Program-made: the position numbers and the translations under genes
In this document: positions 31,964 through 42,038 of the stretch, one piece after another
Numbering within the stretch: the stretch's first letter is position 1
Layout of the letters: every line of letters starts with the position of its first letter
Assembly (NCBI GenBank): GCA_963969345.1
Contig: OZ017768.1
Coordinates: 9,464,193-9,528,192, forward strand
Direction of reading: 5' to 3'
DNA from: Turbatrix aceti
Lineage: Eukaryota > Nematoda > Chromadorea > Rhabditida > Panagrolaimidae
Length of the DNA: 64,000 nucleotides
The notes under the pieces: generated by a model
The model's input: the letters and a program-made list of their open reading frames with translations, nothing else
The model's database searches: none
Told to the model about the DNA's origin: nothing

Positions 31964-34900
31964 ATGCTCGGTTCTCCAGACTCTGGAAACAACAGCGATG
32001 ATGTTCGTGAGCGTTCTGAGCCTGTCAATACGACCGCAGATACCAGTTGTACGGCATCTGTAGACGATAATACGCGCGAACCATCCATGCCGGGCGAAAT
32101 CAAGCCAAATCAATCGTCAACAACAACGACCAATGATGACAATGATAACGAGCCGGCACCCGTACTCAAGCGTGAGCAGGCAACAGGTATTTCCGTCGAT
32201 GGCGGCGGCAGAGGCGATGGACACAAGAATGCTGCCACCAATGCGACGGGGAGCGGTGAAAAGTCTCTGTCAACATCGTCAGCGGCAGCAACGGCGGCAA
32301 AGGGTGATTCAGAGTCGTTTTCGAACGATGATTCGCCGTGGAAAACGCCACCCCAGGCTCCGAGGGCTGGAAAGGTAGAACCGAGATGGCATCCACCCGA
32401 GGGCAAGCCTACGCGTCACACAAACAAGATTGAGTACATCAGAACAACGGTCATGAAGGCAATACGCAAGCACCAGCATTCCTGGCCGTTCATGCAGCCA
32501 GTTGACACCGAAAAGCTTCAGTTGCACGTGAGTTTTTTTAACTAGGCCTAAAATGCCGGAAATTTGCATATAAAACGTCGGTTTACGGCATTTTTTTGCA
32601 TAAAATCGTCCATTTTTATTCGAAAGTGCGCTTTTCGGCTGAAAAATATTGTTTTACGCAAAAATTGTTTTGGACGCAAAAACATGCCCGCGCAGATGTG
32701 AAGTAAAAATGCCGAAAGCGTACGCCGAAAACGAAAACGCTTAGAGAAGGTTTTTTCTCTAAAAAAACCTTCATTTTTGCTAAAATTTGTGCTGTGCTTT
32801 TTGTCAAAAAAAAACGTGTATGTGTTGTCCGAAATGACAGAAACATGCACGTGTAAGTTTTGTAAATCATTTTTAAATATGCCTAAAATTCTTACCATGT
32901 GCTTATGTTGGCATCAGAAACGTCTGTTTTCGGCGTTGTCTTTACAAAAAACGGCATTTTTCAAAGAAAAATCTCAGATTTGATCCAATAACGTTCTTTT
33001 TGGGCATTTTGTGCATATAAACTTCCATTTTCGATCGATTTTACAGTTTTTTTTGCCGCAAATGTTGTGACAAATTGATTTTTTATTACCAAAAATGGAA
33101 TGTAACATGGGCGAATTCAACTTTTCGCGTAATTGTAATACCTAATCGCGATGTTTCACATTCGGGACCTAAAATAACGGTTTTATTACTTTCGAACTTT
33201 ATAAAGAGCAACAAAAAACGAACTCTCAACCAAATGTAACAAAAAAGCCTTTTGACGTTATACAACGAGTCTATAACGTAGCAGCTCAGACAATTTGAAG
33301 TCGCACCCATACCAATAAATCGATCTCTTTCTTTGCACAGATTGCAATCTTCACCCTAAAATCTCGCATTTCATCTCTGTTCTGTTCTACTTTTCACTCT
33401 AAACTGATCTGTTTTTTTCAGGATTACTTCGATATCATCAAGCGTCCCATGGACATTGGTACGATCGAGAAGCGTATCAAAGCTGTCTACTATACCGGGA
33501 TTAATGAATGCCTAAAAGTGAGTTTTTCTTGAAAACCCCTTGGTTATCGTAGTTCTGGATCGTTTGTCTGTTTGCTAGAGTTATTATTAATTGGGTCGTA
33601 CGCAAAAACTTGTAAAAAACTATAATTTTTTGGCACACACAAAAAATCAAGCTGCACTTCCCTTTTAACAGCCTTTTTGGGAACAAGCGAGCTTACACTT
33701 TTTTACGGTTGATTTTTGTTTGCGTTGGCGTAGGAAAGGTATCGGAGGGGTCAAAATGCATTCACTAACAATTCAAAAAAACATTAACCAGGTTTTTGAG
33801 ACTGCTAGTGCCAGTTTTGCTCTTTTTTGTCTTTTGTGGTCGATTTTGAGGGTGATTGCTTTTGTTTTATGGACTGATTGATTATTAACTGAATAACACG
33901 GATGGTGTTGTATTTACATTTGTACATGCACGTACACGATTATTATTATTATTAACAAGTAATTGTTTGTTTGACCATTTTTTCGTTCACTATATATATA
34001 TATTTGTTTTTGCGGCATTTAAAAATTACCAAATTGCTTTTTTAAGGACTTTATGACAGTCTTTAACAATTGCTACACTTACAATCAACCGGAATTCACG
34101 GTTTATAAAATGGCGCAAGATATTGAAAAGTTACTACTTGAACTCGTGGGATCAATGCCCATTACCCAAGTAAGTTTATATCATTTGAATTCATTTTTCA
34201 GGATTTCTCGACTGTCTGGAACGATTGTTATAAGTATAACGGTAGTGCCGAAGACATCTATTACATGTGTAATGCTGTGAAAGATGTCTTTAATGCCGCT
34301 CTCAAAGGAATGCCAGCGGGAGAGGTTGTGTTATTTGATATTTCCACGCACACTTTGTTCCGGAGACAAGATGGATGTCGTTGTCGCTCTGTTGTCGTCC
34401 TCGACAACAGCAGTTTTTGAACAGATTTTTTGGAAAAAAAACAACAACCACATAATTTTTAATATGGCTTTACAAGAATAATGTCTCATTGTGAAGTTTC
34501 AGGAGCAGGACGTGACGCCATCGTGGATCAAGAAGAAGAAATCGAAGGCAACTGCTAAAGGTAATGCTGCGACCGCGGACACAGTGCTAGATTACTTCCA
34601 CAACGCAACCGTACAAGGTGCTCTAAATTTAGGCTTTTTCTCGTAGTTTTTATAAGCACAATCTCAAAAATTTCTCGTACTGAACAATTTGGGACGCTTT
34701 TGGGTTTTTTTTTGGAAAAAAAAACTATTTTAGGCCCAAATGTTGGCTTTTAGCGCGAAAAATAGTACCGTAACCGCGATTTTTTCCTATTTTTGTACCA
34801 ACGTTTAGTTTTTCGAGTTACGATCACTTTTTCGCAAACGCGGGCCTAAAACCAAAAAAAGGAGTTTTTTGGCCTAAATTTGTGGCTTTTGACACGAAAA

Positions 34901-37900
34901 TGATACCGTAATGTTTTTTGTTCTTTTGTGTCAGTTTCACAAATGCGGGCCCATAAATTGTTCCGAACGTTTTTGAGCCCCATTTTTTTTGTAATCAGTA
35001 CGAGAACCATCCCCACACAGAATAAAATACTAATTTTTGCACAATTTGAAGCAGGGATGCGATTTTATTCTAATTTACAGCATTTTTTTGTTGGTTCGAT
35101 GAGAATCTTTGACCTTGCACACTGACATCATTTTCATGTTGTTGTCATTTGTTGCAGTTGTACTGTCGTCTCTTCTAACTCACCTAAATCTCCCGTCATC
35201 TAGGTTTCCGTAGACTGTATTATCAGCTTCATCGTACGCTTTTTTGGATGACACTGAATACGAGCACTTTGACCGGTTGTTTCACATTTTTTTTGTTGTT
35301 TTTTTTCATTAGTTTTCCTTCCCTCCCTGCTTCTTAGGATTTTTTCTGCTTTGTTGGATGTTTTGACCAATTTTTTGTTCTTTTCAGTGTCAGTGAGCAG
35401 TTCGGAAGCCGGAGGTACGGGTGTCAAGAGAAAAATGGATCCACAGGACGTCGAGGAAGAAGAAATTCCGGCTAAGAAGAATCCGAATATCAAGAATCGG
35501 CCCCTACAGGATTATACCAAATGTCCTCCTCGGTATACTGGAAAGTTTTCATCGAGAATGAATGGTTGCCTCAAAATTCTCAATGATTTTTTGGCGAAAA
35601 AGAGCTCAAAGGTTGGTTTTTTGCAAAAAAAAACTTTTTTTGTCATTTTTTTTATGTTTTTTACCCTTCTTATCGTCGTTTTTCAGTTTGCCTGGCCATT
35701 TGTCGCTCCCGTCGACGTCGAAGGCCTCCAACTCGTTGATTACTACGACATCATCAAGAATCCGATGGATCTGGCTACGATGAAGAGAAAGTTCGACGCC
35801 CGACAGTACGCGAATGCCGAGGAATTTATCGATGACATGGAACTCATCATCCAGAATGCCTTTGTCTACAATCCTGAAAGTTCGATGGTCCATAGCGCAG
35901 CGAAGGACATGAAGAAGGTCTTTGAGGAACGGCGTAAGCGTCTGCCTCCCGATACTCCGGCGTATTCCGCTCCCCCGGAGACCCCGGCGACGTCGACTTC
36001 GTTCTCTACGCCGGCAGTGCCTGTCGCGACACCGGTTGCGGTTCGTCACCCGAAGGTCGAGCCGGTATCGATCATGGCCCCTCTCCACATCCAGCCGAGC
36101 ACTGCGAACAAGGTGATCGACAGCGATGGACAAGTCGAGCTCCTCCTTCTCCGTCTGCAGGCTGAAACGTCGAGACTCCAGGATAAAATTGCTGAAGTCG
36201 GACGTGTGACGCAGGATTTGTTCAACTTCAAGATCACAAAGTTTGCGGCGATGGCGGAAGGCAGGCCGACCCCAACGCTGCCTCCGGAGCTCCTGAACAA
36301 TGTCATGAAAGCGATCAAAGATTCCTCTGGACAGGAGCTGACGGCGTCCGCGATGCATACCCCGACGCTGTCTGTCGCTCCGGCCACTCTGGCGCCCGCT
36401 GGAAAGCGACGAGCCGGAAGACCGAAGGTCAACGCGACTCCGAGTGCTGCCGCTGTCACGAACGCGATCTTCCCGCCTCCCCCTGCGGCTGTTGCGACTC
36501 CCGAAGTGGCTACTCCGGCGCCTGCCAAAGCTGCCCATGTCGCTTCGACGCCGGATGTGTCGATGGAAGAGGCACCGGCCCCTGCCGTGCCGCAGAAGTC
36601 AAATCGCGGTCGTAAGCCGGGATCGAAAAATAAGCCAAAGCCGGATCCAACCCAGCTTCGTGATGACTATGCATTCGATTCTGGGGACGAGAGGAACAAG
36701 GAGCCGATGTCCTACGACGAAAAGCGACAGCTTTCGCTCGACATCAATCAACTGCCGGGCGACAGACTCTCGAAGGTGGTCTCGATCATCGATGCGCGAG
36801 AACAGCTACACGACTTCAATCCTGAGGAAATCGAAATCGATTTTGAAACACTCAAGCCTGTCACGCTCAGGGAGCTCAAGGCTTACGTTACACAGTACCT
36901 CAAGAATCGTAAAAGCACCAATAACACTGCTCGCAAGCCAAATGGTTGGTTTTGGTTTTTATATCCTTTTTTTTATGATTAATACGTTTTTTTATGTTCC
37001 CAGAGGAGATAATCTTACGCCCGTACCCTTTTTTAGCCTCTAGGAATTCGGTTGATCCAGAAACGCGCAAACGAGAACTGGAAAACCAAATCATGACGCT
37101 GTCAAACCGAACGGCTTCGTCGAATGCCCTGGCGTCGGCTGTCAATGCGCCGAGCAATTCGGGTGGCGCCGGCAGCAGTGGCACGGCCTCCAACGCTGCC
37201 GCAACCAACGGAAACAGGCAGCAGGGCTCTGCGTCTCCGCATCGACGATCGTCGAGTGGGTCGTCTTCGTCGTCGGATTCGGACTCGTCTTCGGACAGCG
37301 ATTCCGATAGCGGCAGCGAATCAGGTTAGAAAACTATCCATGGAGACCTCAAATGTCGAGCGAAAATTTTGGGAACATTTTTTTTGCACGAAATTATGGC
37401 CATACGCTGGCGCTTTTTTTAACCAAAAATTTTTTTGTACATAATGTTGGCGTATTTTTCTGGTTTATTTTTACCAAAACGAAAACATGATTCTCACCAA
37501 AAAATGAAATCTCACGACTATTTATGTGTTTTTTTTTGCATGTTGTATAAATTGTCCATGCTTTTTTTCCGTCCTCCTGCCCTATGTTTTTTTTTGCCAT
37601 AGAATATCATTTTTTGACGAATATCATCATCCTCAAGTTTTATTACACATTCCATTTGTTGTTACCTGGCTTTGCGCTTTGCTTTTTTTGTCCGTCCATT
37701 TTTCGAGTTACCGACCGGACCGGCGATTGTGCAGACAGACGACACGCTAAAAAAGCTGGATGCTTCTGCTTCGATAAGCATGCATTGCCATTTTTGACCC
37801 CTGTTTCCCACCCTCCGACTAATGTTGTCTTGGTGTTTTTTCTTTTCTTTCATTTTTTTTAAATCTCCTCACTTTTTTGATCATCACAGTCAGGAACGAA

Positions 37901-38925: not shown

Positions 38926-40403
38926 GCGAATGTGCGTGCCTCCGTGCCATACTTTTACAATAGCAGTAGCACAGACCAACGAACAAATAAGCTGGCCGTA
39001 ACCTCAATTGCCCTTCTTCTTTTCGAAAATTACCTCTCAACGGCGATACCGCAAGTCTGACCACCCTACCGTATTGCTGCTCTCCGCCCGACAACTTCTT
39101 CTGCTGCTCTACTTTTCTTCCTCCGACAACGACGAAGACGTTGTTCTGGAAATTTATACTTCTTTTGGTCCTTTTTTGTTTTTGGATTTCTTATTCGTTA
39201 TAACTGTATTGTTTTTTCTTTTAATTCAAAAACGGTACTTTTTCTTTCACTCAACAAACAAAAAACAGTCATCTGTGCGTTGCTCATTTTTTTCTTTTAG
39301 GTTTTTTTGTCACTAACTAATTATCTCTCGTGTTCCCCTCCTTTTTTGCGTGTTTGAACCTGAATTTGAATCCAACTCTTCTTTTTTTGTCTGTATTGTT
39401 CTCATTTACACAAAAAAAGAAACACGATTCCAATCCAATCGCTCCTCGCTGTCTGGTGGCTGGAGGGCGAAAAAACGAGCTGCAGTTTTTTTTGGCTCAA
39501 AAGAAAAAACAAAAAATTGTAAAATTTGGCACGTATAAAAAATCAGAAATGTTCTCATCGTTTTTTTTCTTCTTCGTTGTACTTTTTTTTTAGATTTGTA
39601 CGAAAACTTGACAATCAACAGCCAATGCGTGGTATTTTTGGCGTCATCAAAACTCTCCGAAAAAAAAATATTTCCATTTGGATAAAAAAATCATCGGAGA
39701 GTTTTTTTGGCCTTTTTTCTTTTTATGTTTCTTGTCATCCATCATCAACCAACAACTCCTACCTTTTTTATGACTGCGATAAAAAAATAAACAAACAAAA
39801 AACAATTTTTAGGCTCAATTTGTTTGATTTTTATTTTTTTCATGGATTATGCCTCCTCACAAATTTTTTGTTGCCCTTGTCACCAGTTTTTTTGCATGAA
39901 AAAAAGTTTTTACATTGTATTCTTCTCTTTTTACATGTTTTACGACAATTTGTTGTTTTTGACTTGGAACAAATAAAATTTCAAAATCGATATGTGAATT
40001 TTTGAATTGGACGACAAAAACAAACATAAAAAAGGATGAGCGAGCAAACGTTTCGATAATTTTGTTCGAGAAACGCATCGAATGCAGAGAAACACAGCTT
40101 CGTAACGAAAAACACTGTAATCTGGCAAAAGAAGTGCAAAAAAAGAACAATGAAACTGAAAAATACGGTACAAATATCTCAAAGCGACAAAACTGAAGGT
40201 ATCGTAAAAAGTGCGCACGCCAACAAATCTCGACACGAAAAATGTTGCCCCACCATTTTTTGATATCGTTTCGTCGTCCTACCCGGGTTTTTTCATTGGC
40301 ACGTTGTTGTTGTCATTGTTGTTGTCGTGTGACTCTCTTTTCCAGCTATTTTTTGATCGTCTTGTACTTTGTGTTATCTATTGTCAGCTTCTTACGATAC
40401 CAA
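38926..40403. other. Region between the two BET-family genes
   Basis: BET 3' UTR and the upstream region of the paralogue. T-rich, no supportable gene. It contains a stem-loop (39648-39709, listed separately). Confidence 0.5.
39648..39709. repeat. Stem-loop downstream of the BET gene
   Basis: CAAAACTCTCCGA at 39648-39660 pairs with TCGGAGAGTTTTTTTG at 39694-39709 across a 33-nt A/T-rich loop. Function unknown; possibly a 3' UTR structure or a small mobile-element remnant. Confidence 0.5.
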
Positions 40404-42038
40404 ATGTCGAATTTGTCCATAGGTAGGTTTATTTTTCTTTTTTTTCCCCAATTTTTTTCCTCTTTTCCGAACTTTTTCCTGTTTTTTATTTATTTTTTAC
40501 TCATTTCAGCGACTCTTGGATGCCGAGGCCTCAAGCGAAAAAACAGACCCCAGTATGGATACTTAATGGCGCCGAAGATTGTCAGGAATCGTCCTATCGA
40601 AGACTTCTCCAAGTTTCCACCGCGGCATCCCGAAAAGCTGTCGCCTCGGATGAATGGCTGCCTCCAGATTCTGAATGACTTTTTGAACATCAAGAATTTC
40701 AAGGTTGGTGATTGTTGGATTCGGGAAAATGCAAATTTTTGCAAAAATAAGGTTTTTTGCGGATTTTAGTTACCTTACCTAAAATATTGCAATTATTTCG
40801 CGTCGAGAACCCTACTTTCTTTTCTTTCTGTATTTTTTTTGCATTTTTTTTACCTAAAATGCCGTTTTCGATCTTTTTTCCTATTTTTTTTGTTTTTTTT
40901 CAGTTCAACTGGCCATTCCTCGCCCCCGTGGATGTCGAGGGCCTTGAACTCTACAACTACTACGACATCATCAAGAATCCGATGGATTTGGCCACCATGA
41001 AGCGGAAGTTCGACGCCAGGCAGTATGCCAATGCCGAGGAATTTGCCGCCGACATGGACCTCATTATCGACAATGCCCGCCTCTACAATGCCGATCATTC
41101 CGATGTGTTCAGCGCGGCTGTGTGCATGAAGAAGGTATTTGAGCAGCGAATGAAACGAATTGACCAAGAGACTTTGGCTGAGTTCGGCTTTCTCGCGCCG
41201 ACGACGAAGAATGTTGTTCCCCTTCATTTTGACTTCTCATTGATGAATGAGCTCAAGGCGGCTGAGTCGGATGACATTTTTCTGGATGCCGCGACTTTGT
41301 TCCTTCAATCGATCGTGCAGGACTGTCTGAACGCGAAACTGCAGCGTCTGAACGCCAAATTCAAGAACACGCCGATTCCGGAAGTCCCGCTCAAAATCAA
41401 GAATCTCATGAATGCTCTCAATGCTGCCGGCTGTGGTCTGACGTCGGATCAGAATCAGTATCATCAGAATCCACTCGATAACAACGATCATTTACCGACC
41501 AAAACTGTGGTTGCGCCCACCGAGGTCGTCATCAGCGAGAATAACTCAAAGTACGTTCTGGAGTACTCGTTTGACTTCGATGACGAACGCAATCAGGAGC
41601 CGATGCCCATCGAAGACATTCAGCGATTCTTTGAAGTATTGAGCACTCTTCCGCGTCTAGTGTTCCTTCAACTCGGGGCTATCATCAACAGTCGAGAACC
41701 TCGATGGGTAGGCGAAGAAATCGACTTAACAGCTCTCAAGCCTGCGACAATGCGGGAAGCGAAAGCCTTCGTCACGCAATTCTGCGAGAATAACAGTTTC
41801 TCTCTCAAGAATTCTTGCGGAAAAAACGGTTGGTTTTTTGAGGGTTACGGTCGATACTGTAGTTTATCCTATGTTACGATCATTATCGACCGGAAATACT
41901 TTCTTTAACATTTTTTTCCAATAAAAACCTGTTTTAGGCACTGAAGCCTGCGCAGTCTGCGAATGCACCTCTGATGCCGTAAGTCATTGAACTCATTTTT
42001 TGACGGCAAACTGATTGATTTTTTTTCAGAAGCGATAA
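40404..42038 (+). CDS. BET-derived paralogue with one bromodomain (BD2) and ET domain
   Basis: Exons 40404-40422, 40510-40703, 40904-41828, 41938-41978 and 42030-42038 give about 395 aa. The tiny first exon encodes MSNLSI. The rest matches the second half of the BET gene: PIEDFSKFPPRHPEKLSPRM before BD2; [30 protein letters not shown], identical to the parent; NARLYN with the binding Asn kept. A divergent linker follows, then ET (NQEPMPIEDIQRFFEVLSTLP; KPATMREAKAFVTQF). BD1, the SEED tract and the acidic tail are missing. It ends in a short Cys-containing exon (TEACAVCECTSDA) with a stop two codons into the next. It could act as a competitor of the full BET protein for acetyl-lysine or ET partners (inference). 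It lies 1.5 kb downstream, so a tandem duplication is likely. Confidence 0.85.

Follow-up and report, generated by a model that had tools for sequence, protein, structure and literature searches.

A tandem exon pair that probably swaps half of the first bromodomain of a BET protein in Turbatrix aceti

The stretch of Turbatrix aceti DNA analysed here (the window; 64,000 nucleotides) carries a gene on its forward strand whose modelled exons lead from a first bromodomain (BD1) to a second bromodomain (BD2) and an ET domain. Two neighbouring exons, 3a and 3b, encode alternative versions of the same half of BD1. The features, in window coordinates, are as follows:

31964..32527, forward strand: exon 1, as modelled; it begins at the first ATG after an acceptor-like site, and its upstream limit is a guess
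33422..33517, forward strand: exon 2, common to both forms; 32 residues covering the remainder of the ZA loop and helix A, overlapped by the Pfam bromodomain match
34047..34169, forward strand: exon 3a; 123 nt, 41 residues, the helix B–BC loop–helix C half of BD1, with rim F-T-V and donor GTAAGT
34170..34201, forward strand: spacer; 32 nt holding the 3a donor and the 3b acceptor (GTAAGT...TTTTTCAG)
34202..34324, forward strand: exon 3b; 123 nt, 41 residues, the alternative helix B–BC loop–helix C half of BD1, with rim E-D-I, acceptor TTTTTCAG and donor GTTGTG
34325..34502, forward strand: intron from 3b to exon 4; it contains the weak 3b donor and a hairpin at 34389–34410
34503..34560, forward strand: exon 4, short form; 19 residues, joining to 3a or 3b
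34561..34617, forward strand: optional extension of exon 4; it ends at a second possible donor in the same frame and encodes a conserved FHNATVQ stretch
35690..36943, forward strand: BD2 followed by the ET domain, both belonging to this BET gene; Pfam matches on one open stretch (PF00439, 67 bits; PF17035, 82.8 bits)

Exon 1 supplies the N-terminus, helix Z and the start of the ZA loop with its WPF motif, and ends in a GTGAGT donor. Joined to the upstream exons, either 3a or 3b completes a bromodomain, scoring 68.2 and 63.3 bits, respectively (Pfam cut-off 21.7); together with BD2 at 67 bits, the protein has two bromodomains in both forms, and the ET domain follows BD2 with a score of 82.8 bits (cut-off 24.5). 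Since the gene continues into BD2 and the ET domain, it is a BET gene. It shares the two bromodomains and the ET domain with the family at large (BRD2/3/4/BRDT, fs(1)h, and BET-1 and BET-2 of Caenorhabditis elegans), and differs from it in having two alternative helix B–helix C halves of BD1. Its closest database relatives are the BET proteins of Panagrolaimus and Halicephalobus, at 44–48% identity.

The two exons are adjacent, homologous by profile, and alike in length and phase: each is 123 nt long, they are 32 nt apart, and both are in phase 0 with respect to the end of exon 2 (33517) and the start of exon 4 (34503). At 54/123 identical nucleotides and 13/41 identical residues, they are diverged paralogues. 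The BD1 made with either exon gives a gap-free alignment of 112 residues with human BRD4 BD1, such that the same stretch is replaced with no insertion or deletion. In the numbering of BRD4 BD1, we take the relevant residues to be Asn140, Asp144, Asp145 and Ile146; the acetyl-lysine-binding Asn140 is kept in both exons, whereas positions 144–146 read F-T-V in 3a and E-D-I in 3b. An earlier note, made from the letters of this DNA, had described two exons of equal length and phase, both encoding the helix B–helix C half of BD1 with the binding Asn and differing in the BC loop and gatekeeper region; the description is correct.

The exon pair is not a product of chance. Using profiles for 3a and 3b built from the exons of other nematodes, with the window's own rows left out, the two exons were the sole matches at E ≤ 0.1 among the 2062 stop-to-stop frames of at least 20 residues in the window. 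Each was also assigned clearly to its own type: the 3a profile gave exon 3a 62.5 bits and exon 3b 25.5 bits, and the 3b profile gave them 39.7 and 51.4 bits, respectively. Additionally, there is just one instance of GTAAGT-N16-26-TTTTTCAG in the window, against an expectation of 0.04.

A protein-level search of the whole genome (59.9 Mb, 28 contigs), with BD1 and both exons as queries, listed 17 matches and placed the pair in the window only; the idea that the pair recurs in another BET gene was rejected. The ET family matches at three places in the genome, namely in the window (81.5 bits) and twice on another contig, C1 (48.9 and 48.7 bits). The two C1 copies (loci L015 and L016) lie at about 2861000 on the reverse strand and about 2948500 on the forward strand, some 86 kb apart and in opposite orientation; they are nearly identical to each other and consist of a BD2-like domain and an ET domain, with neither 3a nor 3b in the 3.2 kb examined. 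When 3a and 3b were sought in the 3.2-kb loci around the C1 copies and the window copy, no match exceeded 3.2 bits. The C1 copies thus form a small BET-derived family, BD1 having not been found in the loci examined. A further, partial tandem copy lies downstream in the window itself (40242–41908): it comprises a pre-BD2 stretch, a BD2-like bromodomain (40913–41119; 64.7 bits) and an ET-like stretch that is weakened and gives no match in the ET family search, and there is no BD1 match upstream of the copy. Apart from the gene described here, no BET locus with a BD1 was found in the T. aceti genome, the other loci containing BD2-like and ET parts only.

Related BET proteins were gathered in three protein searches (47 proteins, the best 120 of 191, and 10; 166 proteins in all) of a database clustered at 90% identity, so that a species showing one type may carry both. 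Each protein was assigned to the best of four profiles (3a, 3b, canonical and BD2) scoring at least 20 bits. With these profiles, which were seeded from some of the proteins classified, the 166 matches listed divided into 16 with 3a followed by 3b, 18 with 3a, 23 with 3b, 78 canonical, one with a lone B label, and 30 with BD2-like matches only or nothing; the smallest margin between the 3a and 3b scores, for nematode rows with the full exon, was 15.9 bits. Two fungal proteins (P0016 and P0021) and one from a protist (P0027) had been forced to label B and were left out of the nematode counts; two of these three are among the 23 models with 3b, and the third is the lone B. Among the matches listed, 55 models are chromadorean BET proteins, several of them from one species: 16 contain both types, 18 contain 3a only and 21 contain 3b only, and the order is 3a before 3b in all 16 that contain both. 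Two other nematode models fall outside the 55, P0014 (Dirofilaria) having no BD1 match and P0036 (Pristionchus) being another bromodomain protein. In Globodera (P0057) and Mesorhabditis (P0063), a shortened 3a piece is joined directly to a whole 3b, probably through mispredicted splice sites; the two models entered the tally of 55 as containing both types, but their shortened 3a pieces appear in neither the tree nor the residue counts given below.

The genera concerned fall within clades III, IV and V. Plectus shows 3b only. The models from Trichinella (two) and Trichuris (one) have one canonical exon, and neither the 3a nor the 3b class was found among the non-nematode animal models P0079–P0158 or in the mite P0013. 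Judging by these predicted proteins, the exon pair is widely shared among chromadorean nematodes, a breadth that escaped the earlier note, which had proposed a comparison with related nematodes as a check.

A tree of the exons (71 rows and 41 columns; bootstrap not settled) unites the 35 3b rows in one group (support 100/100) and the 28 3a rows in another (99/96), and places the 3a group beside the one exon present in Trichinella and Trichuris (95/94). Both types are present in full in 16 entries, the window included. The long branches in the tree include both window rows, and window 3b has the longest end branch of all (3.26). The simplest reading of this topology is a single tandem exon duplication after the split from the Trichinella/Trichuris lineage, after which 3a would have kept the ancestral type and 3b would have diverged, a polarity that the earlier note had missed. 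The two tree groups, taken with the single canonical exon of Trichinella and Trichuris, imply that the duplication is old and has been kept; the pair would have arisen early in Chromadoria and been retained in many lineages.

Isoforms that carry one exon or the other are on record in two relatives. Proteins P0001 and P0003 of Panagrolaimus sp. PS1159, both of 923 residues, differ only at 206–244, where 29 of the 39 positions are changed. In Caenorhabditis briggsae, P0164 and P0166 share one locus tag, L3Y34_011252, and differ in the 3a/3b stretch and in one N-terminal insert; the insert in these BET-2-like proteins, of about 107 residues, constitutes a second alternative segment. The tag L3Y34 we take to denote strain QX1410. 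The QX1410 gene models were corrected against Illumina and PacBio RNA, and the authors of that work warn that some modelled isoforms may not exist (PMC10463891). Moreover, opposite types are found in close genera: Brugia 3b differs from Wuchereria 3a at 26 of 39 positions, and Ascaris 3b from Parascaris 3a at 28 of 39, in each case forming the largest changed block in otherwise closely similar proteins. Such a pattern would be expected if every entry in the database represented one of two isoforms.

In C. elegans, BET-2 (P0160) carries 3b. BET-1 isoforms A–C were reportedly defined by Shibata et al. in 2010. The tree places all three BET-1 cDNAs printed in PMC9835578 with 3b, and C. elegans bet-1 therefore seems to have lost the choice. 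In the same paper, overexpression of BET-1B lengthened life and that of BET-1A or BET-1C did not (PMC9835578); as the three are identical in exon 3, this effect on lifespan is unrelated to the exon swap. Overall, the Panagrolaimus and C. briggsae isoform pairs and the two tree groups lend strong comparative support to the proposal that mutually exclusive exons swap half of BD1.

What the swap may do to the protein is suggested by the residues at the pocket, counted over 28 3a, 35 3b and 8 canonical rows (window rows included, numbered from Asn140, with the Ditylenchus 3a row off by one residue in the table). At the Asp144 position, 21 of the 28 3a rows have Tyr or Phe, whereas 34 of the 35 3b rows have Asp or Glu. 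The Asp145 position is Asp throughout the 3b and canonical rows (35/35 and 8/8, respectively), and in 6/28 3a rows. The Ala150 position is Cys in 34/35 3b rows and Ala in 25/28 3a rows. In the BD2 alignments, the 144 position of BRD4 BD2 is occupied by His, and an aromatic residue there makes the 3a rim look somewhat BD2-like. The aromatic rim is not uniform in 3a: strongylid rows read S-D-I or S-E-I, close to Trichinella. On these residues, the swap changes the rim of the BD1 pocket, and the two forms may read different marks.

It is also conceivable that the forms are mutually exclusive and yet functionally equal, the swap being neutral or serving expression control only. Both are predicted to fold alike: AlphaFold2 gives the two Panagrolaimus forms the same helices (199–216 and 222–238), with a block pLDDT of 87–94 over 201–250, although such models speak to how well each form fits the fold, and not to binding. 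However, the signatures of the two types, Cys or Ala at the Ala150 position and, at the Asp145 position, the Asp found in all 3b rows but in few 3a rows, have been kept over many genera, and the 3a and 3b rows constitute two separate tree groups. We consider functional equality unlikely.

The splice sites of the two exons are of unequal quality. The 3a donor (CAA/GTAAGT) fits the consensus, whereas that of 3b (GAG/GTTGTG) fits it poorly, confirming the weakness ascribed to it at first inspection; the 3b acceptor is consensus-like. With so weak a donor, 3b could be a relic in T. aceti, left unspliced while 3a is used constitutively, and its extreme branch length would accord with an exon that is little used or decaying, as would its similarity to five other 3b rows at just 12–17 of 41 residues (window 3a matches that of PS1159 at 22/41). 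Against this, 3b has no in-frame stop and reaches its 51.4 bits with a 3b profile built without it; it still has the Asn that binds acetyl-lysine, an acidic pair (E-D) and the Met-Cys by which 3b is typified, in addition to a consensus-like acceptor; and 3b is kept in the nearest relatives (Panagrolaimus JU765, Halicephalobus and PS1159). We judge it highly improbable that 3b is such a relic.

The spacer was also compared with the short introns of the genome. In a strict donor–acceptor consensus scan over 283,131 bases of T. aceti DNA, in which the introns are not individually proven, 32 of the 70 pairs of 20–200 nt fall at 46–57 nt, the short-intron peak; an earlier census of 264,000 bases had found 31 pairs at 46–57 nt against none in one simulated control. 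Four pairs are shorter than 46 nt (25, 32, 40 and 43 nt), and the 32-nt one is the 3a/3b spacer itself. As the 40- and 43-nt pairs look like introns, the true minimum may lie near 40 nt. The gap of 32 nt is thus shorter than the genome's minimum intron as judged from the 46–57 nt peak, the exact minimum being uncertain, and its removal as an intron is unlikely: joins from exon 2 to 3a, or from 3b to exon 4, would be feasible, but hardly one from 3a to 3b. The census therefore lends indirect support to the earlier suggestion that the spacer, with its GTAAGT and TTTTTCAG ends, is too short for normal splicing. Frame does not enforce exclusivity, a possibility that we rejected because all the modelled joins (2-3a-4, 2-3b-4, 2-3a-3b-4 and 2-4) are open, those with both exons or neither included. 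Retention of the spacer would cause a frameshift, 32 nt not being divisible by three.

Inclusion of 3a and 3b in one mRNA, which would double the helix B–helix C unit of BD1 and reduce the single-exon forms to minor products or annotation choices, is very unlikely: the two types do stand head to tail in 16 of the 55 chromadorean models listed, which are presumably gene predictions, and the joined 3a–3b frame is open, but the spacer falls below the short-intron peak, one-exon models outnumber two-exon models by 39 to 16 among the same matches, single-exon isoform pairs are on record in Panagrolaimus and C. briggsae, and, because 3a and 3b each fill the same gapless part of BRD4 BD1, the doubled form would carry an extra 41-residue unit within the domain. 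Domain scoring was tried as a test of the doubled form and proved uninformative, as this form still passes the Pfam bromodomain model at 78.3 bits.

We favour, with a probability of about 0.9, the reading that the pair is spliced mutually exclusively in T. aceti, that the 32-nt gap is too short for the two exons to be joined, and that half of BD1 is swapped by an arrangement that is old and conserved. The pre-mRNA would include 3a or 3b, and not usefully both, and the choice would exchange 41 residues (helix B to helix C, including the BC loop and its acetyl-lysine-binding Asn), the remainder of the protein being constant. Exon 3a would retain the ancestral helix C, usually in combination with an aromatic residue at the Asp144 position, whereas 3b would retain the acidic, BD1-type rim and carry a new helix C. 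The likely purpose would be to switch the acetylated targets read by BD1, or the tightness with which they are bound. In T. aceti, 3a would presumably be the default, with 3b used where a factor activates its weak donor, as in let-2. More tentatively, chromadoreans may in general switch the acetyl-lysine code of BET BD1 by splicing, in a manner kept since early Chromadoria: the 3a form might then bind other marks and respond differently to BET inhibitors, and the choice might be regulated by tissue or stage through the weak 3b donor.

Candidate regulatory elements were sought around the two exons. Downstream of 3b, the hairpin at 34389–34410 has a perfect 9-bp stem and a 4-nt loop; the 43-nt stretch that contains it, which was picked by eye, folds better than 200 of 200 shuffles (z −3.34), and the whole intron between 3b and exon 4 gives z −2.35, 6 of its 200 shuffles folding equally well. 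The hairpin could regulate the weak 3b donor, and we regard it as a lead, not as evidence. Long-range pairing was rejected as the exon selector: the flanking introns and the exons yield only short or AT-rich inverted repeats, and one example, 34012–34022 with 34289–34299 (11 nt, 91%), is by our own estimate at about chance level for 985 bases. Among splice-factor motifs, TGCATG and TTGTTGTG are absent from 33518–34502, GCACG occurs once (at 33928), and the sole GTTGTG is that of the 3b donor; a role for CELF/UNC-75 in the choice of exon is only suggestive.

Mutually exclusive tandem exons are already known, also in nematodes: examples are exons 4a–c and 7a/7b of unc-32, exon 5B of egl-15 and its partner, and let-2. 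In each, as proposed here, one exon is chosen from a cluster of neighbours; the T. aceti gene differs in that the target is a histone-acetyl reader and in that exclusion is probably steric. Steric hindrance as a cause of exclusion is known from the alpha-tropomyosin type, in which the donor of the upstream exon is too near the acceptor of the downstream exon. The likeness holds for T. aceti, although the distance there is that of the whole 32-nt spacer. Steric hindrance is also stated in general terms in PMC3585155, which further reports that ASD-2 activates the donor of the downstream exon in let-2; by analogy, an activation of this kind is what the weak 3b donor of T. aceti would need.

The novelty here lies in the target and in the wide conservation. 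Among the titles and abstract openings of the best matches in the open PMC literature, we found no report of mutually exclusive exons in a BET gene or inside the bromodomain of a BET protein. In the passages of PMC3863420, PMC3862036, PMC9835578, PMC6361200, PMC13178736 and PMC6890932 that come up under isoform, exon and splicing terms, no such BET exons are mentioned. The earlier note's view that the arrangement was undescribed in BET genes thus stands for the open PMC literature, but isoform records are already in public databases: the event is annotated there, though apparently undescribed.

BET proteins read chromatin in a general way and serve as drug targets, and how a given bromodomain recognises acetyl-lysine is commonly regarded as fixed. 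If splicing switches the reading pocket itself, in an arrangement maintained in many nematode lineages, a single gene would provide two readers. The consequences would extend to BET inhibitors in filarial worms, where a given compound may act on only one of the two forms; in Brugia malayi, two of the 16 bromodomain proteins are stated to be BET proteins, in a paper that also deals with JQ1(+) (PMC6890932). Published nematode gene models that paste both exons together would also need to be re-examined.

The gene probably has a second, separate splicing choice at exon 4. Two possible donors, after 34560 and after 34617, are in the same phase, and the longer exon adds a conserved stretch of 13 residues that is present in 10 of the 166 collected proteins, all 10 of them from nematodes, and absent from the others among the matches listed.
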